A DNA stretch of 33,003 nucleotides from Candidatus Poribacteria bacterium (GTDB lineage: Bacteria > Poribacteria > WGA-4E > JAJRTO01): NCBI GenBank assembly GCA_024278235.1, contig JAJRTO010000285.1:1-33003 (forward strand), in the 5' to 3' direction. Position numbers and translations under genes: made by a program. Every line of letters starts with the position of its first letter. The first letter of the stretch is position 1. Below, one piece after another: positions 5,481 to 32,748 of the stretch. The notes beneath the pieces are model-generated. The model saw nothing but the letters and a program-made list of their open reading frames with translations. It ran no database searches and was not told the origin of the DNA.

Positions 5481-7736
5481 ATGTGCGACTTAAGGTACTG
5501 GATTCATACTATCTTCATCATTCTTTTCTGCACTGTCTCTATTGCTAAAGCGGGTACCTGGCATCAACCATCACAGATCATCTGCTCTGACTGCCATACG
5601 ATGCACTACAGCGAGGGTGGAATGATGCCTATGGATGCAGAAGCGGGTGGGCCTTTTCCTCGTCTGCTCCTGGCGAGCACAACAACCGCTCTGTGCCTTG
5701 CCTGCCACGACGGCACTGATACGGATGCTCCGGACGTCGTGTATCCGGTCACTTATACCCCCGATCCCGCAGCGGGATATTTTGCGAACTCCGGAGGTGC
5801 TGCGAGTGACAACGCCCACAACCTCGGTATGTCCACCGGGGAAATGCCACCGGGAGGAAGCGATAGCCTGATCCTGAGCTGTGCCTCCTGCCATGAGCCA
5901 CACGGCAGTGTCAACCACCGGAACCTACTACTCAACCCGGTGGGCAGTGGCAATAGCGCAAATGTTGGGGTTGTTGTAGCTCAGACAAAATCTGCAGATG
6001 GACCGGGTGGGAACACCCCTGCTGAAGTCTACACACCCGCGAATCTTCGCTACAAGAGTGGCATGAGCGACTGGTGCAATGATTGTCATACCAACTTCCA
6101 TGGATCCACTGAGACAGGTTCTCCGGAACCGTGGTTTCGCCATCCGCAGGATGTGACGATCTATGGACAGCAGTACACCGACTATAGTCACTGGAGTGGC
6201 TCTATCACTAATCGCATCGAGGTGGAGAGCCCGGATTCGATCATTCCTGGTCTGGATGATCAGGTGTTTTGTCTTTCCTGCCACAAAGCACATGGTTCTG
6301 CTAATCAATCCGGTCTGATCTTCGCGGATGGTTCCAGGATGCTCTCCACCTGTCAGCAGTGTCACAACAAGGTTTATGAATCCACCAAGCATGGTAATGC
6401 GCTGACTGGTGTCTATCGGGTTACAGGAGATCCGAAAGGAGATTGCACCCAGTGTCACGATCAGCATGCAAGTCGGGATAGTGTGCCGACGCAGGGTGGT
6501 CCTCATGACTATCTTCTGTTTGCCGGCAATGACAACAATCTCTGTTATGCGAACGATGGTGCTGGCCCCTGTCATGCTTCGACCAGTAGCAATGAAATCT
6601 ACCAGAGTTCAACGACCTACCAGAATTCCTCCCACGCAACCAGCACAAATATGTACTGGCCCGGGCCGACGCCTCCGGCGCGTCCGTTTTCCGATTATGG
6701 CGAATGCCTGAACTGTCATACACCCCACGGTTATGACGATGGTGGGGGACTGGTGCCGAGCCAGGCGATCTCCCGGGAGGAGAACCTCTGTGAAACATGT
6801 CATGATGGTTCTCCGGCAAGCAATGTGAAAAATGACATCATCAACACTTACCGTCATCCGGCCCATGATTACTCGGATCGACATGATCCAGCCGAGGGAG
6901 GAACGACGAGTAGTTTCGGAAGCGCAAATCGTCATGCCGAATGCACCGATTGTCACAATGCACACTATGCGAAGTCCGATGTGTTTACTCCACCGCATCC
7001 CGATGCCTCTGAGCGGATCAAAGGGGTCAGTGGTGTCGCCGTTCTGAACGGTGGAGCAGGAACCCAACCGACCTATACCTATCTCTCTCCCAGTGTGGGT
7101 ATTAAGTATGAATACCAGCTCTGCTTCAAGTGCCACTCGTCTTGGACCGTACAGCCAGGCTGGCAGCCTGACATGGCCAAACTGTTCAATACCAACAACC
7201 CCTCCTACCATCCCGTCGAAGCCCAGGGAACCAATTCGGGGATCGATTCCCGCTCTTTTGTCAATGGTTGGGCTCCCGGGGATACGATGTATTGCACCGA
7301 TTGCCACGGAAGTGATAGCTCCTTGCTGGAAGGACCACACGGTTCCCAGTACAATTACATCCTGAAGAAAGACTATGTGGCGAGTAGCAGTCAGCGTACT
7401 ATGTCATCCAACGAAATCTGCTTCGACTGCCACAACTATGATACATACGCCAATGATCAGACGAAAAAAACGGCCGGGAAATACAGCCGCTTTACGAAAC
7501 ACTCCAAGCATGTCGACAGGAAGCAGTATCCCTGTTATACCTGTCACGATTCGCATGGATCGACGGACCAGCCACATCTCATTGTGATCGGTAGAAGCCC
7601 CGGCATCACGGACTATATTGAATATCCGGACGGTGGCAACTGTAGTGGGTCAGGTGGAGGTGGAGGTATGGGAGGGGGAGGGGGAGGAATGGGATGCCAT
7701 GGTTATGAAAACTACACCGTTGAATATCCGAGGTAA
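5481..7736 (+). CDS. Secreted multiheme c-type cytochrome with expanded heme motifs
   Basis: 751 residues. The ATG at 5481 follows the previous stop by two bases and opens a signal peptide (WIHTIFIILFCTVSIAKAG). I count 14 CXXCH motifs. Two further positions look like variant heme sites: CYANDGAGPCH (CX8CH), and a terminal Cys separated by 17 mostly Gly/Met residues from Cys-His (CX17CH). The second aligns with CX5CH at the end of the cytochrome at 3-2024. The region from NPSYHPVEAQ through GRSPGIT is strongly similar between the two proteins, including CFDCHNY and KQYPCYTCHDSHGS. There is no membrane segment besides the signal peptide. It is sandwiched between an NHL protein and a beta-barrel, as expected for the cytochrome of an outer-membrane or extracellular electron conduit. 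Heme occupancy of the variant motifs is unproven. Confidence 0.93.
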   Translation: MCDLRYWIHTIFIILFCTVSIAKAGTWHQPSQIICSDCHTMHYSEGGMMPMDAEAGGPFPRLLLASTTTALCLACHDGTDTDAPDVVYPVTYTPDPAAGYFANSGGAASDNAHNLGMSTGEMPPGGSDSLILSCASCHEPHGSVNHRNLLLNPVGSGNSANVGVVVAQTKSADGPGGNTPAEVYTPANLRYKSGMSDWCNDCHTNFHGSTETGSPEPWFRHPQDVTIYGQQYTDYSHWSGSITNRIEVESPDSIIPGLDDQVFCLSCHKAHGSANQSGLIFADGSRMLSTCQQCHNKVYESTKHGNALTGVYRVTGDPKGDCTQCHDQHASRDSVPTQGGPHDYLLFAGNDNNLCYANDGAGPCHASTSSNEIYQSSTTYQNSSHATSTNMYWPGPTPPARPFSDYGECLNCHTPHGYDDGGGLVPSQAISREENLCETCHDGSPASNVKNDIINTYRHPAHDYSDRHDPAEGGTTSSFGSANRHAECTDCHNAHYAKSDVFTPPHPDASERIKGVSGVAVLNGGAGTQPTYTYLSPSVGIKYEYQLCFKCHSSWTVQPGWQPDMAKLFNTNNPSYHPVEAQGTNSGIDSRSFVNGWAPGDTMYCTDCHGSDSSLLEGPHGSQYNYILKKDYVASSSQRTMSSNEICFDCHNYDTYANDQTKKTAGKYSRFTKHSKHVDRKQYPCYTCHDSHGSTDQPHLIVIGRSPGITDYIEYPDGGNCSGSGGGGGMGGGGGGMGCHGYENYTVEYPR
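7644..7693 (+). repeat. In-frame GGA/GGT-rich microsatellite
   Basis: A purine-rich run of GGA, GGT, GGG and ATG codons encodes a Gly/Met stretch between the Cys and Cys-His of the last heme motif of the cytochrome. Length changes in multiples of three would alter only the loop length; the sister cytochrome has no such tract. Confidence 0.8.
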
Positions 7737-7862: not shown

Positions 7863-9499
7863 ATGCATAGTCTTCGTGGCAAACTCTTACTGGCTTTGTC
7901 CTTCTTTTTTTTTTCTGTTCGCTGACGAACCACCTGTGCGGGACAGCCAGTGCCCAAGTAAACACAACCACCTCGTTCTCCTATGATCTGATCAAGGCGG
8001 GGGGAGAATGGTCGAGAGAATCTGAGCAGCGCATCAACCTATCGCTCACAGGGAAAACCGGCCTGGCGAAATTGTTGGGCCTCAATGTTGGCGTCCTGCA
8101 AAGGGGCAAAGAACGGGATCTCCTGGGAGGATTCACGCCAACATACAACCTTAATTTGCAGGGGAAACACTATACGCTTGCCAGCGGCTATTCTGTACGC
8201 ACGTTCAGAGGGATGGTAAATCCACGCCTCTATGAGAATCTGACCGTTACTTTACCTGGATTGCCGACTTTCCGCATGGCTTACGCGAAACAAGATACAA
8301 GAGATACCGCAGAAGAACCCAAGATAAACTCCAGCAGAATCAACATGCAACTTGGACTGGAGGATGAGCTTGGACCCTTTCGCGTCCGGTTAGACAAGGT
8401 GGAATACACTTCAAAGGATCTGATCCGGGGACCCACTTACGACATCAAATCTTCCGATACCACTGGCGAAGCGATCTTCGCCTATTCCTACAGACGGTTA
8501 TTTTCTCTGAGTGGACAGTACAAGCTGGGAGAGCTTCGTACAGAACGAGCCACAACGGGGGAGACCTATGAGGAAACGCGGGATTTCTCTGCAGGATTTC
8601 GTATTAGCCCCGTACCCACTATCACACTGTCCGGAACGATGCTCGGACGGCAAGAACAGAGTAGTGGATTCACGGGGGATCTCACGATGGACTCACTGAC
8701 GAACCGGATCCAATTGATGCTTCAGCCATTGCGAGGTATTCTCATGAATACCACCTATTCCAAGAACGATATTTCTGAGAGCGAACAGCGTCCTGTTTTG
8801 AATGAGAGCTTGTCGGTGACGCTCTATGTGGAACCTCGACAAGGATTGGTGTTTTCCGGCTATGTCACCGCTCATGATTCCAGTGAAGACAGTCAGCGGC
8901 TGCTATCTCTCAGGAGAAGTTCCTTCGATTTACGAGCCGAACCCATTGAGGGGATCAACGTCATATCGCGTATCGATTCATCTGAGTCCACCAATTTCGT
9001 AAGTGATCTCCGCAACAGCAGGAACAATGTCGTCACAAGATTAGAAGCGATTCCCACAGCAAACTTGAGGACCGAAGTCAGTTATGACTGGCAGAGGTCG
9101 AGTCGGTGGTCACGCGGTCGAACTGACGATGAAACTCAGCACACACTTGCATTCGATTTGAATTATTCTTTCATTCGTATGTTGGATCTCAACCTCAGAT
9201 ACAGCAAGAACATATCAACCGCATGGGAGGGCAGCACAAATTCTCTGACATATGGTATCAACTATCAGAGAGACGGATCGAATATCTCTATCCGGTACAG
9301 TAAGACGGAAAGCCCTGAAATTGATCCTTTATCCCTGCGCAGGAAGCTTTCCGCAACCAATATTTTCACCAGTGAGATCAGACAAGAGATAAGCCGGGGC
9401 AATTATCTAAGTTTACGTTATGAAACCCGCTCCGACAACAGGCAGTTCGGCCCTGGTAAGACAACAAGGATCTCATTCCAGGGAAATCTCAGGTTTTGA
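7863..9499 (+). CDS. Outer-membrane beta-barrel (porin-like), signal peptide frameshifted at poly-T
   Basis: The downstream open frame begins formally at a TTG (8072) with no ribosome site and no signal peptide, but homology-free inspection shows the true beginning further left. An ATG at 7863 encodes HSLRGKLLLALSFFF, a classic n-region and hydrophobic core, then meets TGA. Shifting frame inside the T10 run (7905-7914) continues as CSLTNHLCGTASAQVNTTT, with ASA a signal-peptidase site. Eleven or eight T would restore one frame of about 545 residues. The mature protein is a long series of alternating beta-strand segments with many Arg/Asp/Ser turns and ends RISFQGNLRF, the C-terminal Phe typical of BAM-assembled barrels. 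It follows a multiheme cytochrome by 126 bp, fitting the porin of a porin-cytochrome conduit. Family assignment (MtrB/PioB/OmbB-like role) is inferred from context only. Confidence 0.72.
7905..7914 (+). repeat. Homopolymer T10 in signal-peptide codons
   Basis: Ten consecutive T inside the hydrophobic core of the beta-barrel signal peptide. The upstream ATG frame and the long downstream frame differ by one base across it. This is either a contingency (phase-variable) tract or a homopolymer length error. Confidence 0.85.
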
Positions 9500-9526
9500 T
9501 GGATGCCTTTGACTGGAGGCGCGACT

Positions 9527-12430
9527 ATGGTTGCTCTATCAGAAAGTCTCAATACAAAAATCATCCTTGCAGTTGTCCTCTCGCTCGCTATGATGCTGGC
9601 CGCTTCTTTTTATCTACTTGGTGAATACCAGAAGACGCAACTCATGAGGCATATGAAGGCTTACTCGAGCCAGCTCAACGAAGCGATCCGTCTTAACTTA
9701 GAACATAAGATGCTCAGAAACGAAGTGAAAGACATTTATAACAGCATTCGAGAATTGGAGGATCAACGGTATATCGAGAGGGTACGGGTCCTCGATACGG
9801 AGGGAAAGGTAGCCTTTTCTCCCAAGCAGGATGAGGGAGACAAAACATTGGAGACCTTCCTCCCGATGACCTATCGCCAGTTCTCTGATATGGAGACATC
9901 GGCTTCTCCCAGGCAAACAGTGTTTGAAAATCTGAAAAAACAGAGCATACTACGTAGCACTTACTACATCCCCAATCAAATCGAGTGCCAGACATGCCAT
10001 GCTAAAGAACAGAAGATACTTGGTACGTTGCTTATTGACACTTCGCTGACAGGGGTCGAGCGTGAGATGGCAAGTCTCTCCGGAATCATGTTTTTCGTGG
10101 GACTGGTCACTCTGCTCTCTGCTGCTTCTGTCATTATTGTCGTCCTTCGGAGATTAGTCATTAAACCGATTGAACTCTTGGCTCTTGGTACGCAGAAACT
10201 GGCGGATGGGGAACGGGATTATCGAATCCAGACTCAGGCAAAGGACGAAATTGGGAACCTGACGAACTCTTTCAACATGATGGCTGGCAAGCTGAAGGAC
10301 TCACAAGAGAAGCTTGAGAACTTTAACGAAGAACTTCAGCAGGAGGTGGAAAGAAAAACTCAGCAGATAAAGGCCAATGCTGATATGCTGCTGGCTGCAA
10401 CCCAAACGTTCAATGAATTGACCCTGGCTGCTCTGCACGATGACACCGAGGTGCTATTCGAGAATCCGCACCTGAGGAAGTGCTGGGAGGAACACAGTTG
10501 CAAGAAAACCGACTGTTCCGCATACGGCTCGGACGATCTCCGCTGCTGGCAAATTGCAGGAACATTCTGCGACGATGAAGTGACGGGGCATTTTGCCGTT
10601 GAACTGGGAGATTGCCGAAAGTGTCGGGTGTTTCAAGCGAGCATCGGGACGGAGCCCATCATCCAGATCGGTGAAAACTTCAACAACATGATGTATCACC
10701 TCAGAAGTCAGCAGCAGAAACTCATCGATTTCAGCGAGCAACTCCAGGAGAAAAACAGGGAACTCCTGCAACGGAACGCCGAGCTGGCCACCCTACTCGA
10801 TATCGGGGCAGAGTTCTCTCATTCCGTTGAATTCCAGCGTGTCATCGACAAGATTCTCATGAAGACCAACGAGTTCTTCGGTAGCCACTCTACCGTACTT
10901 TTCCTGCTGGACGAGGACAAAACCCAGTTTACCACATTTTCCATAGGATGGGAGGATGAGGAGGATGTCAGGGACAAACTCCCCGCTCATTGTGGTGTGC
11001 CCGGCTGGGTCGTCGCACATGGCCGACCCATGCTTATTCATGACACCACCGAAGATTCTCGGTTCAAACAGATATATCAAAAGCAGACAGTGCGTTCTAT
11101 TCTGATGGTACCGATAGGTGTCAACGGAAAAATCGTCGGCACTCTGGGTACGGCAAGCCTGGATACGAACTGCTACAACGAAGAGCAGATTGATTTCCTT
11201 ATGGCGATTGCAAACTATGCGGCAGTCGCCATGGAGAATGCGCAACTTTTCGAGCAGCAGAAACGCTCCTATAGTCAACTGGAAGAAGCGCATGAGCAGA
11301 TGATCCGCACGGAGAAGTTAGCGGCCTTGGGCGAAATGGTTTCAGGCATCGCCCATAATTTCAACAATATCCTGGCAGGAATATTGGGGTACACGCAGTT
11401 ACTGCAAACGAAGGTCAATGATCCACAGATACTGACCAAGCTCAATATCATCGAAAAGGCAACTTTGTCCGGTGCAGATACAGTGAAGCGCATGCGAGAT
11501 TTCGCAAGGAAAGCAGCATCGAGCGAGGAACTTTTTCCATTGAATATCAATGAAATCGTTGAATCTGCTCTGAAGCTCACGGAGGCATCATGGCGAAATG
11601 CGGCGCAGGAGAAGGGGATCAACATCGATGTGCACACGGATCTCGGAAAGGTAAGCCCTATCCTGGGCAATGCTGCGGAACTGCTTGAGACACTGAGCAA
11701 TATGATCCTGAATGCGGTCGATGCGATGCCGGAAGGTGGCGAGATCATGCTGAGGACGTTCTCCGATGCAAAATCCATCATGATTACGGTGACAGATACG
11801 GGTATCGGTATGTCCAATGAGATACAACGGAAGATCTTCGATCCGTTCTTCACGACGAAAGGCACCCAGGGAACGGGACTCGGGTTGAGTATCTCTCACT
11901 CGGCGATCCAACGGCACGGTGGTCGCATCAGCGTAGATAGCACAGAAGGCCAGGGCACGACTTTCACGATCACGCTTCCGATATCTGTGGATCGGCGTGA
12001 CACCGTGAAAGGGGAGGAGCCGGAAGTTGTCAAGCAGGAAGAACGGGTCCGAATCCTGGTTGTCGAAGATGACAACATGGTACGCAACGTTGTCACAAGT
12101 GTACTCACTGAGGATAGGCATGATGTCACAGCAGCCAGCAATGGAGATGAGGCCCTTGAATTCCTTCGGATCTCCAGTTATCATATTGTTCTGACGGACC
12201 TCGGCATGCCCGGAGTAACGGGTTGGGAGGTAGCTCGAGCTGCCAAGAACGCTTGCCCAGATACGCTTGTGATTATGCTTAGCGGTTATGGACTGGAAAT
12301 GTCCAAAGATGAACTTCGCGATAAATGCGTGGATATATCGCTAGACAAGCCCATCCAAATACAAAGATTGCGAAATATAATCAATGAAGTCATCTCCTCT
12401 ACGAATAACCATGAAGCGAACGCCCATTAG
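9527..12430 (+). CDS. Hybrid sensor histidine kinase with periplasmic heme-c site, two-CW, GAF and REC domains
   Basis: 967 residues from ATG 9527, which has GGAGG at 9515-9519; the earlier ATG (9503) lacks one. Order: TM1 (about 13-32), periplasmic domain with C154-Q-T-C157-H158, TM2 (about 190-210), HAMP, coiled coil, and a Cys-rich block with two CW pairs (C319-W320, C340-W341) and further cysteines, like the 'two-CW' domain seen in Geobacter-type sensors. A second coiled coil and a GAF domain (about 415-570) follow, then the HisKA H-box SGIAHNFNN (H610), HATPase with N-box NAVDAM, DTGIGM and GTGLGLS, and a C-terminal receiver with phosphoacceptor D891 (LTDLGMPG). The single CXXCH in the periplasm should bind heme c, suggesting redox, NO or O2 sensing. 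It starts 27 bases after the barrel gene and overlaps the next lipoprotein gene, so it probably senses conditions relevant to this cytochrome system. No separate DNA-binding output is encoded nearby. Confidence 0.93.
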   Translation: MVALSESLNTKIILAVVLSLAMMLAASFYLLGEYQKTQLMRHMKAYSSQLNEAIRLNLEHKMLRNEVKDIYNSIRELEDQRYIERVRVLDTEGKVAFSPKQDEGDKTLETFLPMTYRQFSDMETSASPRQTVFENLKKQSILRSTYYIPNQIECQTCHAKEQKILGTLLIDTSLTGVEREMASLSGIMFFVGLVTLLSAASVIIVVLRRLVIKPIELLALGTQKLADGERDYRIQTQAKDEIGNLTNSFNMMAGKLKDSQEKLENFNEELQQEVERKTQQIKANADMLLAATQTFNELTLAALHDDTEVLFENPHLRKCWEEHSCKKTDCSAYGSDDLRCWQIAGTFCDDEVTGHFAVELGDCRKCRVFQASIGTEPIIQIGENFNNMMYHLRSQQQKLIDFSEQLQEKNRELLQRNAELATLLDIGAEFSHSVEFQRVIDKILMKTNEFFGSHSTVLFLLDEDKTQFTTFSIGWEDEEDVRDKLPAHCGVPGWVVAHGRPMLIHDTTEDSRFKQIYQKQTVRSILMVPIGVNGKIVGTLGTASLDTNCYNEEQIDFLMAIANYAAVAMENAQLFEQQKRSYSQLEEAHEQMIRTEKLAALGEMVSGIAHNFNNILAGILGYTQLLQTKVNDPQILTKLNIIEKATLSGADTVKRMRDFARKAASSEELFPLNINEIVESALKLTEASWRNAAQEKGINIDVHTDLGKVSPILGNAAELLETLSNMILNAVDAMPEGGEIMLRTFSDAKSIMITVTDTGIGMSNEIQRKIFDPFFTTKGTQGTGLGLSISHSAIQRHGGRISVDSTEGQGTTFTITLPISVDRRDTVKGEEPEVVKQEERVRILVVEDDNMVRNVVTSVLTEDRHDVTAASNGDEALEFLRISSYHIVLTDLGMPGVTGWEVARAAKNACPDTLVIMLSGYGLEMSKDELRDKCVDISLDKPIQIQRLRNIINEVISSTNNHEANAH

Positions 12431-13091: not shown

Positions 13092-14510
13092 GTGTTCGAT
13101 CTCATCGTTTCATTGGACCGAACAGCCCACTGGCAGAGGATAGCAGTGCTCTTGATGAGCATACTGCTTGGTGTATCCGGATGCGCAAAAGCCCCCGTAA
13201 GAGGATATCTCAAACGTGGTATAACACCCGCACATGTGGGTACTCTAGCGGTGCTTCCCTTCGACAATATCAGTGGTCATCCCGATGCCGGAAAAAAAGT
13301 CGTCAATCTTTTGCTGACGGAACTTGCTCGCGCTGAACTGTTTGAAATAGCGGAGGCCGGGGAGATCGAGAAATCGCTACGGCGCCTGAGGATCCGAACG
13401 ACAGCAGAACTCGATCTGGCTAAACTCCAAGAGTTGGGACAGCAGATCAATGCCCGGACGGTGATTGTTGGCTCCGTGGATGAGTACGAAGTACGTCAAG
13501 AGAGAGCCGAATCCATCCCTATCGTTGCCGTAAACGCCCGGATGCTCGACACTGAAACGGGAGACATCCTCTGGGCGGCCAGCCACGTGCATGATGGAGA
13601 CGATTGGGAAACAGTCTTTGGCTTTGGAAAGATCACCTCGCTGAGTCAACTCGCAAAGACCGTTATCTCAGAGATGGTGGAATCGTTGGTGCAGGGATTG
13701 ACAACACCACAAAGACCAGGTCAGCCAAGCATACCATACCGGAAAACAGGGAGACCGAGTTCGACAATAGGGCCTGTGTATCCAGAAGATCCGTATGCAG
13801 TACCCTCTTTGACGCTGGAGAAAAAGGTCACTCCGCCATCTATTGCCCTCGGTCAGACGGTCACATTCGACATCATCGTTTCCAATACTGGTAGAGGACG
13901 GGCCACGAATGTCGTTATCCTGGACAAGCTCCCACCCAGTTTGAAATATAAAAAAGCAACGGACAACGGGATCCTCGATGCCATCGGCCATGTAAGGTGG
14001 CAGATCGATGTGCTGCGACCGAATGAGACAAAGGAAGTGAAACTGACGGTGATGGGCTTTACAGCAGGGCGTCACCTCAATGAGGTGACGGTCTCAAGTC
14101 GAGAGGGAGCGAAAGCGATGGGCAATGCCATCGTCACCGTCGTTGCAAGACCTGCCATCCGGATGACCATGACGGTCAGACAAAACCTCATCTCCGTTGG
14201 CAAGAATACAACCTATGCTATTGTGGTGGAGAACAAGGGGGCAGGAGCTGCGACGGGCGTTCTTGTGGTGGATAGTGTCCCGAAGAAAATGAAGATCATA
14301 CAGGCTACCTCCAGTGTCGGAACATATACGATACAAGAGAACACCATCACCTTCAACATCGGGACGATAGAACCCGGGGAGAAAGTACTTCTCACTGTTC
14401 ACGTCAAGGCGATCGGAACCGGAAACGTCGTCAACAGTGCCGAATTGACATTGCATGAATTCAGATATCCCATGACGGTTGAGGAACCAACGACGATCTT
14501 CGAAGATTAA
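13092..14510 (+). CDS. CsgG-like lipoprotein fused to two DUF11-like domains
   Basis: 472 residues from GTG 13092, with AAAGGA at 13081-13086. The leader ends in GVSGC (Cys31), a lipobox. Residues about 50-210 repeat the CsgG-like fold of the preceding gene (LAVLPFDNIS, VGSVDEYEV, ARMLDTETGDILWAASH, GFGKITSLSQLAKTVISEM). After a Pro-rich linker there are two tandem DUF11-type Ig-like domains. The first starts LTLEKKVTPPSIALGQTVTF and the second TMTVRQNLISVGKNTTYAIV, each with the SNTGxGxATNV / ENKGAGAATGV signature. DUF11 domains are found in large surface proteins of many bacteria. The combination with a CsgG-like lipoprotein is unusual in my knowledge. It probably lies in the same operon as the kinase and the lipoprotein before it. 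Function unknown; a periplasm-spanning or surface-exposed scaffold is plausible. Confidence 0.75.
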   Translation: MFDLIVSLDRTAHWQRIAVLLMSILLGVSGCAKAPVRGYLKRGITPAHVGTLAVLPFDNISGHPDAGKKVVNLLLTELARAELFEIAEAGEIEKSLRRLRIRTTAELDLAKLQELGQQINARTVIVGSVDEYEVRQERAESIPIVAVNARMLDTETGDILWAASHVHDGDDWETVFGFGKITSLSQLAKTVISEMVESLVQGLTTPQRPGQPSIPYRKTGRPSSTIGPVYPEDPYAVPSLTLEKKVTPPSIALGQTVTFDIIVSNTGRGRATNVVILDKLPPSLKYKKATDNGILDAIGHVRWQIDVLRPNETKEVKLTVMGFTAGRHLNEVTVSSREGAKAMGNAIVTVVARPAIRMTMTVRQNLISVGKNTTYAIVVENKGAGAATGVLVVDSVPKKMKIIQATSSVGTYTIQENTITFNIGTIEPGEKVLLTVHVKAIGTGNVVNSAELTLHEFRYPMTVEEPTTIFED

Positions 14511-28362: not shown

Positions 28363-31300
28363 ATGATCCAAGTAGACGATAAGAACAAAACCGGGGATGA
28401 GAAGTTGATGGAACTTTCCCAGATAGGATTGACCATCCAGCGTTTACATACCAAACCGGAGATACATCCCTTCGATCAGATAGAGTGGACACAACGTTCG
28501 GCAACGATCACAAACGAGCGAGGAGAGGTGATCTTTGCGCAAGAGGATGTCACGGTACCACGAGAGTGGTCACAGCTTGCCACGGATATCGCCGTTTCCA
28601 AGTATTTTCGCAAATCAGGGGTTCCTGAGACAGGGTATGAGACGAGCGTCAAACAACTTGTCCATCGTGTGGCTCATACCATCCGCTGCGCAGGCGAGGA
28701 AGATGGTTACTTTGCCACAGCAGAAGACGCTGAGGCTTTTGAAGCAGAACTGGCTTATCTGCTGGTGACACAGCGTGGGGCTTTCAACTCACCTGTGTGG
28801 TTCAACTGTGGCCTTCATCGAGAATATGGCATTGTTGGCGGAGGTGGCAATTGGTGTTGGGACGAAGAACAGCAGAAGGCCGTTCGACTCGAAAACAACT
28901 ATGAACGTCCACAATGCTCGGCTTGTTTCATCCAGGGCGTCGATGATTCTCTGGAGTCGATGACGGAACTGCAGAAGAGTGAGGTACAGGTCTTTAAGTA
29001 TGGCAGTGGATCGGGCACGAATTTCAGTAGGGTTCGTGCCAAAGGCGAGGCCCTCTCCGGTGGCGGTGAGAGTTCCGGCGTTCTCTCTTTCCTGGAGGGC
29101 TTTGATCGCTGGGCAGGTAGCATCAAGAGCGGCGGAACAACGCGCCGCGCAGCCAAGATGGTATGTCTCGACATGGACCACCCGGAGATCGTGGATTTCA
29201 TCAACTGGAAGGTCAGAGAAGAGAAGAAGGTTGCGGCACTCGTTGCCGCTGGCTATCCGGCTGATTTCAATGGCGAAGCCTATCATACCGTCTCAGGTCA
29301 GAACTCCAATAACTCCGTCCGCATCCCGGATGCCTTCATGCAAGCGTATCTGAAGGATGAACAGTGGGAAACCTACCTGCGCACAACAGGTGACGTTTCT
29401 GAGACATTTCAGGCGCGAGATCTGATGCGCCAGATCGCCGAGGCCGCATGGACATGTGCAGACCCGGGCGTTCAGTTTGACACGACGATTAACGACTGGC
29501 ACACCTGTGCGAATACGGATAGGATTCGTGCATCGAACCCTTGTGCAGAATTCATGTTCCTGGATAATAGTGCGTGTAACCTGGCCTCCATCAATCTTAC
29601 CAAATACCTTGATACGGATGGGAACTTTGACACTGAGGGATTCCGACACGCTTGCCGTATCTTCTTTATTGCTCAGGATATCCTGGTGGATTTTTCCTCC
29701 TATCCTACAGAGTTGATCGCAACCAACAGCCACCTGTTTCGACCGCTTGGCCTCGGCTATGCGAATCTGGGGGCGATGCTCATGCGCAATGGGATTCCCT
29801 ATGACAGCCCCCGGGCATTCGCCGTCGGAGGTGCGATCACAGCGATCCTGTGTGGACATGCCTATCGAACTTCCGCAGAAATCGCCCAGTTCAAAGGGCC
29901 TTTTGAGGGTTTCGCGAAAAACAGAGCACCGATGATGCGGGTCATGAACAAACACCGAGCAGCGACCTACCGTCTCGATCCAGACTATTGCCCACCCCAG
30001 CTCTTGAAGGCAGCACAGAATGAATGGGATGAGGTCGTGCGCCAGGGGGAACTCCACGGCTACCGGAACGCGCAGGCAACTGTGCTGGCGCCCACAGGTT
30101 GTCTTGTAGGAAATACCCTTATCACAACGGATCGTGGGCTCTTACGATTGAAAATGCTTGGAGATCCCAAAGGTGAAAAATGGCAGGACGTTGCTTTCCA
30201 GGTCTACACCGATGAGGATATCCAGGAGGCAACGAAATTTTATATCAACGGGATGGCCCCGACGCGCCGGATTACCACAAAATGTGGCTATCAGATCCAG
30301 GGGACGCCCAACCATCAGCTCAAGATCCTGGATCCGGAAACAGGCCAACTTATCTGGAAACAACTGGCGGATCTGAGGCCAGACGATATTGTGCCGATGG
30401 TCATGGATGTGCTGATCGGCGAACCACGGCAGGTTCGACTGGCCCCCCTGGGTGAACTCTACTGGACCGGTGACTACGGGACGCGCGTACCGGAGACAAT
30501 GACTCCTGAATTGGCCTAATTGATTGGCTACTTCATGGGAAATGGTAGCCTACATAGTAAGGGTCTCCGCTTCCGTGTCGCCGATTGTGATGAGGATGTG
30601 GTGGAACATCTATGTGCTCTCATCGAGTCTCTCTTTAGCTTGCCTACGCACCGACGCCAGGCACATGGATCCCTGGAAGTTTCTGTGGACTCGGTTCCAC
30701 TGGTGCTCTGGTGGGAAACATGTGGCTTTGCGAAGAAGGGCCCCCATCCCCGGCATACGGGTAAGGGTTATCAACCCTATATTCCCGATGCCGTGCTATT
30801 CACAAATAGTAGGTGTGTCTATGCCGCCTTCCTGCATGGATTGTTTGAGGCGGATGGTGCCGTCGCAAATGGGACACCACGCTGGAGCACCACCCATGAG
30901 GAGTTCTCCCAGGAGATCAAAACTCTCCTGTTGGCTTTGGGATATCCGACCACCACAACGTTCGACCCATCGGATGCGTGGTGCCTGCATATTCGCAACG
31001 TTGCCGACAATACGCGTTTTCACCAGGAGATCGGGTTCCCGGGGCAACGTAAGAACACCGCCATCCAATGTGAGGCCAAGCAGACGGACCAGGGCGATTA
31101 TGTCTACTTGCAGGTCGATGTTCTCTCAGAACTTACCCCTGCCGGGAGCCGCCATCATCATGCAGTACAATGCTCCCTGGAGCGTCACGGCGCGATCCCA
31201 CGGCGGTTGGCTGAGGATATCTACGGCGACACAGCCGATGAACGTGTGGCCAATGCACTCCGGTTCCTCTATGATCGGGTGCAATGCAACGAAGATGGCG

Positions 31301-32748
31301 GGATGCAGCCCACCTATGATCTGTCGGTTCCTGCGAATGTCACCTATACAGCCAACAGTTTTTTGAGTCATAACACCATCGGTCTCCTCATGGACTGCGA
31401 CACCACAGGAGTCGAACCCGATTTCGCGCTCGTCAAGTTCAAGAAGCTTGCCGGCGGCGGCTCCTTCAAGATTGTCAATCAGTCTGTACCGCAAGCACTG
31501 CGAAACCTGGAATACACCGCTCAGCAAATTGAGGAGATCATCATCTATGCTCAAGGGACATTGAGCCTGGAGAATGCACCCCATATCAATCGCCAAAGCC
31601 TCCAATTGAAGGGATTGACGGCTGAGGATATGTCGCGGATTGAGGAAGCCCTGCCAAGTGCCTTTGAATTGAGGCATGCCTTCAACGTCCGTGTGCTTGG
31701 CACCGATGTCATGGAACGTCTCGGTATCCCCGAAGACGAATGCAGTTCGCCACAGTTCGATTTTCTGTCAAGACTGGGATTCACCATAGAACAGGTCGAG
31801 GAGGCCAACCGTGTGATCTGTGGTAGCATGACCGTCGAAGGAGCCCCGCACTTGAAAGAAACGGATCTCCCTGTATTCGATTGCGCGAACCGGTGTGGCT
31901 TTTATGGCAAGCGATTCATCGAACCACTCGGACATATCGGCATGATGGCCGCGGTCCAGCCTTTCCTGAGCGGTAGTATCTCGAAGACCATCAATGTCCC
32001 CAATGAGGCAACGGTCGAGGATATCGAGGGCCTTTATGTGGAGTCCTGGAGGATGGGACTCAAGGCGGTCGCGATCTATCGAGATGGCTCCAAACTTTCC
32101 CAGCCTCTCAGCGCGAAGTCAGATGAAGTCGAAGACACTGCGGAGGAAACCCGACCGCTGCGACGACATCTCCCTGATGAGCGCCAGTCGCTGACACACA
32201 AGTTCAGTGTGGGTGGCCATGAAGGTTATATGACAGTGGGGATGTATGAGGATGGCAGTCCTGGTGAAGTCTTCCTGCGTATGTCAAAGGAAGGATCGGT
32301 GATCTCCGGCCTGATGGACACCATCGCCACGATGACCTCGGTCGCGCTGCAATACGGTGTCCCACTTGAAGCACTCGTGCGTAAGTTCAGTCATATGCGC
32401 TTTGAGCCCTCGGGATTTACCAACAATCCCCAGATCCCCATTGCCAAGTCGATTGTGGATTATGTCTTTCGGTGGATGGGGATCAAGTTCCTGGAGCAAC
32501 CCGATCCCCTGACGGAAGAGGATCCGAGCTTGCTTCAGGATCAGGAGAACGGCGTACTCCCCCAAGCCCCGGGAATTTCACACATCGCCAGGAGGGCACT
32601 CCGAGGAGAAAAGTTGGTGGCTCAGGAACACCTTGTGCATAGCATGCAGTCGGATGCACCTGCATGTTTCGAGTGCGGGGCGATCATGGTGCGCAATGGG
32701 ACCTGCTATCGCTGCTTGAACTGTGGTGCTACCAGCGGTTGTTCGTAA
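28363..32748 (+). CDS. nrdJ: Vitamin B12-dependent (class II) ribonucleotide reductase NrdJ with intein, interrupted by in-frame TAA
   Basis: ATG 28363 has GGAGGAG at 28348-28354. The N-extein (579 residues) contains FNSPVWFNCG, GSGSGTNFS, GQNSNNSVRIPD, and SNPCAEFMFLDNSACNLASINL with the active-site NPCAE. The C-extein (457 residues) resumes at TIGLLMDCDTTGVEPDFALVKFKKL and ends with a Cys-rich ribbon (CFECG...CYRCLNCGATSGCS), expected for the redox-active/zinc C-terminus. The 425-residue intein sits between APTG and TIG, a known RNR insertion point. A TAA at 30517-30519 inside the intein splits the frame into 28363-30519 and 30520-32748. The enzyme makes deoxyribonucleotides using adenosylcobalamin and is oxygen-independent. 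No other reductase is visible here. If the stop is real and not read through, no functional NrdJ would form. Confidence 0.95.
30100..31374 (+). mobile_element. Intein with degenerate LAGLIDADG homing endonuclease
   Basis: 425 codons. Splicing blocks are intact: Cys1 at CLVGNTLITTDRG (block A), GTPNHQLKIL (block B, TxxH), DLSVPANVTYTANSFLSHN (blocks F and G, ending His-Asn), and extein Thr at +1. The two endonuclease motifs are ELA-stop-LIGYFMGNGSL (TAA at intein codon 140) and AAFLHGLFEADGAV. In the first the usual catalytic Asp of GDG is Asn (N148); the second Asp (D252) is kept. The endonuclease is therefore probably inactive even without the stop, a common late stage of the homing cycle. 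Splicing chemistry would still be possible if the stop were absent or suppressed. Confidence 0.93.

Follow-up and report, generated by a model that had tools for sequence, protein, structure and literature searches.

Genes and features at the locus

The window, by which we mean the whole 33,003-nucleotide stretch of DNA analysed here, carries on its forward strand two genes for multihaem cytochromes, a frame for a putative outer-membrane barrel and a gene for a hybrid sensor kinase that is probably co-translated with the barrel (Table 1). As in MtrCAB-type clusters, cytochromes rich in CXXCH motifs (17 and 14) lie beside the barrel, and one of them is MtrC-like. The first 124 bases of the window exactly repeat positions 1063-1186, within the first of the multihaem cytochrome genes, and this repeat at the 5' end of the contig probably explains why the assembly stops there.

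Table 1. Coordinates of the features around the split leader, in positions of the window.
Feature	Position	Strand	Basis or remark
Multihaem cytochrome, 17 CXXCH, cut by contig end	75..2024	+	MtrC/MtrF domain II/IV match, PF22113 at 2e-18
14-haem CXXCH cytochrome, directly upstream of barrel	5481..7736	+	CXXCH count
Leader ORF, frame A = MHSLRGKLLLALSFFFFSVR, ends at TGA 7923-7925	7863..7925	+	translation
Frame B, open stop to stop	7871..9499	+	mature 'barrel' = 7955-9496, C-terminus ...GNLRF
T10 tract	7905-7914	+	longest homopolymer of assembly
Predicted signal-peptidase site TASA-Q in frame B, cleaved at 7954/7955	7943..7957	+	read from sequence
Hybrid sensor kinase, one CXXCH	9503..12430	+	starts 3 bases past barrel stop

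A signal peptide divided between two frames

Frame A, opened by the ATG at 7863, supplies a charged n-region and a hydrophobic core, and read literally it ends after 20 codons at the TGA that follows the tract. The matching c-region lies in frame B, which reads ...CSLTNHLCGTASA up to the predicted cleavage site and QVNTTTSFSYDL... beyond it, indicating a single signal peptide that is split by the tract. The sequence-only reading had placed the leader and the cleavage site in different frames on either side of a run of ten T, and had proposed that eleven or eight T would fuse them into one gene; coordinates and translations agree with the first statement, and the second is borne out by the two reading frames. 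The repeat in the leader is of the kind on which slipped-strand mispairing can act, in that its length sets the frame. The earliest ATG, GTG or TTG of frame B is the TTG at 8072, past both the cleavage site and the mature N-terminus, and a search for another start among these three codons 5' of the T run yielded none. A reading of the run as a terminator was also considered and rejected. Beyond the tract the barrel frame is uninterrupted for 518 codons with a positive coding score, which suggests that the break arose recently, is carried by few cells or is circumvented.

This last observation bears on the proposal that the frame is truly broken and the gene dead, as in an early pseudogene. Such a gene would be expected to look as this one does at its 5' end, with a literal leader of 20 codons and a downstream ORF that has no start before 8072, but 518 further codons that hold neither a stop nor a second shift and still score as coding are difficult to reconcile with decay, and the case of prfA described below shows that taking an assembled frame at face value can be misleading here. 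We regard a pseudogene as quite improbable. Ribosomal frameshifting by -1 on U UUU UUU within the leader is extremely unlikely: the heptamer T TTT TTT is present at 7907-7913 in the right phase, and a -1 shift there would enter the barrel frame, but the downstream stimulatory structure of a programmed site is absent, folding here being not beyond chance (z +1.4 and +0.8).

Identity of the barrel

The product of frame B is probably a secreted, outer-membrane protein, to judge from its leader and terminal Phe, and a role as an electron conduit is plausible from the neighbouring genes. In this respect the locus resembles MtrCAB, PioAB and OmbB-OmaB-OmcB, since here too a signal-bearing probable barrel adjoins multihaem cytochromes, one of them MtrC-like. 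The likeness does not extend to the barrel itself, which matches neither MtrB/PioB nor any other family model or solved structure: comparisons with Pfam, NCBIfam and the PDB gave no match to an MtrB/PioB-type or other barrel family, and a PDB sequence search returned a chance antibody match only. An earlier description of the protein as an outer-membrane barrel and electron conduit thus draws its support from the 17- and 14-haem cytochromes and the MtrC-like domain next door, and gains none from family, PDB or structural comparison of the barrel. Relatives of the barrel were sought by tblastn in 98 genomes, most of them from the class, among plasmids, and as paralogues in its own genome at E values up to 10, and none was found; GTDB genome contigs, scanned with degenerate peptides of both the barrel and the cytochrome, likewise yielded no relatives. 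An AlphaFold2 single-sequence model of the barrel reached a pLDDT of 28 and was discarded.

Length of the tract against expectation

Within the window the tract is conspicuous, an order-1 model predicting about 0.015 T-runs of at least 10, and no other A/T run of at least 10 occurs in the entire assembly of 5.19 Mb in 536 contigs. Across that assembly, with overlapping matches merged by hand, A/T runs number 36 at length 8, 7 at length 9 and 1 at length 10, and G/C runs number 29 at length 8 and 9 at length 9, with none longer. The A/T tail of 36:7:1 predicts one run of 10, so the tract sits on the random tail of the distribution. Matches to T10 are also found in most relatives of the class, at several to dozens each.

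Its position within a leader can be accounted for in a similar way. Runs of at least six T occur at 3.9 per 10 kb in leader-like starts (n=201, from a sample enriched for contigs bearing runs of 8 or more) and at 0.87 per 10 kb in the remaining coding DNA, a 4.4-fold difference that arises because leaders are Phe-rich. With 42% of Phe codons being TTT, the chance of three consecutive TTT is about 0.07, and five Phe codons written TTC TTT TTT TTT TTC already make a run of 11 T, so that selection for the tract is not needed.

Frame breaks elsewhere in the assembly

As a calibration, every run of at least 8 was checked against a coding model, the sorting being partly by eye. G/C runs of 8-9 within genes, some thirty by a hand-sorted count, all keep frame, which argues against a general tendency of the assembly to indels at homopolymers. 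Most A/T runs that lie outside insertion sequences are in frame as well, the exceptions being the T10 of the window, an A9 on contig C418 and probably a T8 on contig C4. By this hand-sorted count about 3 of 21 coding A/T runs outside insertion sequences break the frame, against 0 of about 33 G/C runs (Fisher p about 0.05). At the T8 (L110, 2081-2088, minus strand) the gene for a membrane PAS kinase probably loses its frame near the N-terminus. Within insertion sequences, transposases of the IS3 type (A8 on C435, L082, and on C451, L085) and the IS630 type (A8 on C219, L041) have two frames that meet at an A8. An ab initio frameshift scan of 946 kb of assembly pieces, the window included, found only about 3 clear frameshifts, so lesions of this kind are rare; two lie away from homopolymers, in a TPR-like gene (C490, L141) and a histidine kinase (C38, L128).

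The A9 on C418 (L080:2050-2058, L151:3149-3157) breaks the frame of the essential prfA, the sole copy of the gene for RF1 in this genome. Positions 1-101 and 99-194 of the PCRF profile are encoded in different frames, with the A9 at their junction, and each half is closer to RF1 than to RF2. The only other PCRF gene (C492; L153 about 13250-13600) has prfB as its best match and carries the classic RF2 site, CTTAGGGGG...CTTTGAC, with its programmed +1 frameshift. In nearly all of 58 relatives RF1 is read in a single frame (the gene is split in G013 too and partial in G009, and G004 gave a weak match only). Because TAG accounts for 30% of the stop codons of sampled long ORFs, RF1 must work, and the break at the A9 cannot simply mean that the gene is off. 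A gene of this assembly that loses its frame at an A/T run need not on that ground be inactive: either the allele in use differs in length from the assembled one, or the break is circumvented during expression.

In two pairs of contig ends the overlap is exactly 141 bases. Common short-read metagenome assemblers use 141 as their largest k, and this, together with the 124-base repeat at the 5' end of the window, suggests that the data are probably of the Illumina type, in which T10 is usually called correctly. Pure base-calling error is thereby weakened as an explanation of the break, whereas real length variants and slippage at the RNA level can still be accommodated. Homopolymer compression in long reads was considered as a cause of the T10 and is unlikely, given that exact 141-base overlaps are those of short-read de Bruijn assembly.

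Origin of the frame break

If T10 is the true genomic length, RNA polymerase may slip on the tract and produce mixed mRNA, of which the fraction with 11 (or 8) U would encode the full pre-protein; the conduit would then always be made, at a reduced level, without any switch in the DNA. A/T runs of at least 9 are established slippage sites (Baranov 2005, PMC1088944; PMC4256274; PMC3017870), and at this locus a run of that order (at least about 9) is followed by 1.59 kb of open alternative frame. Slippage at about 20% at the A11 of Citrobacter rodentium tssM and at 20-30% in Shigella mxiE is cited in PMC4256274. In these genes and in IS elements, as it would here, one base inserted at an A/T run of at least 9 restores the frame; slippage there was demonstrated by mass spectrometry of mRNA and by protein blots, whereas at the T10 of the window it is suggested by the sequence. 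A second parallel comes from Blochmannia and Buchnera, where otherwise intact and even essential genes (the latter in Blochmannia) are frame-broken at poly-A/T runs (PMC3017870), although such runs abound in those extremely AT-rich genomes, whereas the present genome has about 51% GC (window) and a single T10. Slippage would also fit the confinement of breaks, that of prfA included, to A/T rather than G/C runs, and the transposases that join frames at an A8. The numbers behind that confinement are small, however, and in most other genes A/T runs of 8-9 are in frame, as if slippage were avoided rather than used. We consider slippage a credible but unlikely explanation.

The sequence-only reading had gone further and suggested slipped-strand phase variation, possibly turning the electron conduit on and off. 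In such a scheme replication would lengthen and shorten the tract, and cells in the ON state (T8, T11) and the OFF state would be mixed and maintained by selection as a form of bet-hedging. The switch would act on the surface conduit and, by translational coupling, on the kinase 3 bases downstream. The anatomy is correct for such a switch, in that a leader, probably of a surface protein, contains the genome's longest homopolymer, but support for the proposal ends with the anatomy: the run lies where the run-length tail predicts one, Phe codons suffice to produce it, and the A9 of prfA breaks in the same manner in a gene where a switch would be senseless. Moreover, the frame is kept in another leader, which has a T9 (C434, ...SLPAFFFFSAFILVFILPPCSSDAQ), G/C runs of at least 10 are absent from the genome, which shows no set of contingency loci, and the searches of the 98 genomes, GTDB contigs, own genome and plasmids yielded no relatives of the barrel.

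The closest layout we have found is that of the sortase-dependent pilus loci bbr_0113 and bbr_1889 of Bifidobacterium breve, where a G tract of variable length stands between one ORF with the Sec signal and another with the remainder of the protein, and a change of one base fuses them (PMC9187656). In B. breve, by contrast, length variation was measured, changes in vivo and involves tracts that recur in related loci; here the comparison is with a T tract in an assembled sequence. Within the texts that it returned, a full-text literature search for 'porin-cytochrome' with 'phase variation' found nothing of the kind. A genuine switch would rank among the early examples of phase variation acting on an electron conduit. 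On these observations a phase switch is a possible reading of the tract but not the simplest. We judge it distinctly unlikely, and a shade less probable again is its fullest form, in which replication slippage would switch the conduit for extracellular electron transfer and the downstream haem-bearing sensor kinase together.

The explanation that we favour, while giving it slightly less than an even chance, is that this is an ordinary gene for a secreted protein whose Phe-rich signal peptide is encoded across a long T run. The working allele would be T11, with the five Phe codons given above, and the assembled sequence would represent a slip of it, one base shorter, either as a length variant among the cells sampled, neutral or slightly deleterious, or as a slip of the consensus. 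We infer that the working or predominant allele is most likely T11, and that T10 is most likely incidental rather than selected as a switch. An incidental slip is consistent with the intact 518 codons downstream, the position of the T10 on the run-length tail, the density of T runs in leaders and the ready chance of three TTT in succession, and apparent lesions occur elsewhere in the assembly: in the sole prfA, though RF1 must work, probably at the T8 of the membrane kinase, and in a ribonucleotide reductase intein (below). Less easily accommodated are the probable Illumina origin of the data and the approximately 30 G/C runs of 8-9 in genes, all of which are in frame; nor did a T11 allele turn up in the data analysed. 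In a metagenome-type assembly, a frame break at a homopolymer is not in itself evidence of a switch; the warning case is that the same assembly 'breaks' RF1, on which about 30% of stop codons depend.

The only ribonucleotide reductase found in the assembly, a class II enzyme, is encoded in the window at 28363-32748 (+) and contains a LAGLIDADG intein. Inside the intein lies an in-frame TAA (30517-30519) with a TTG directly after it (GCC TAA TTG), which may be a nonsense lesion, an assembly error or the stop and start of a split intein; alongside the A9 of prfA, it is another apparent lesion in an essential gene.
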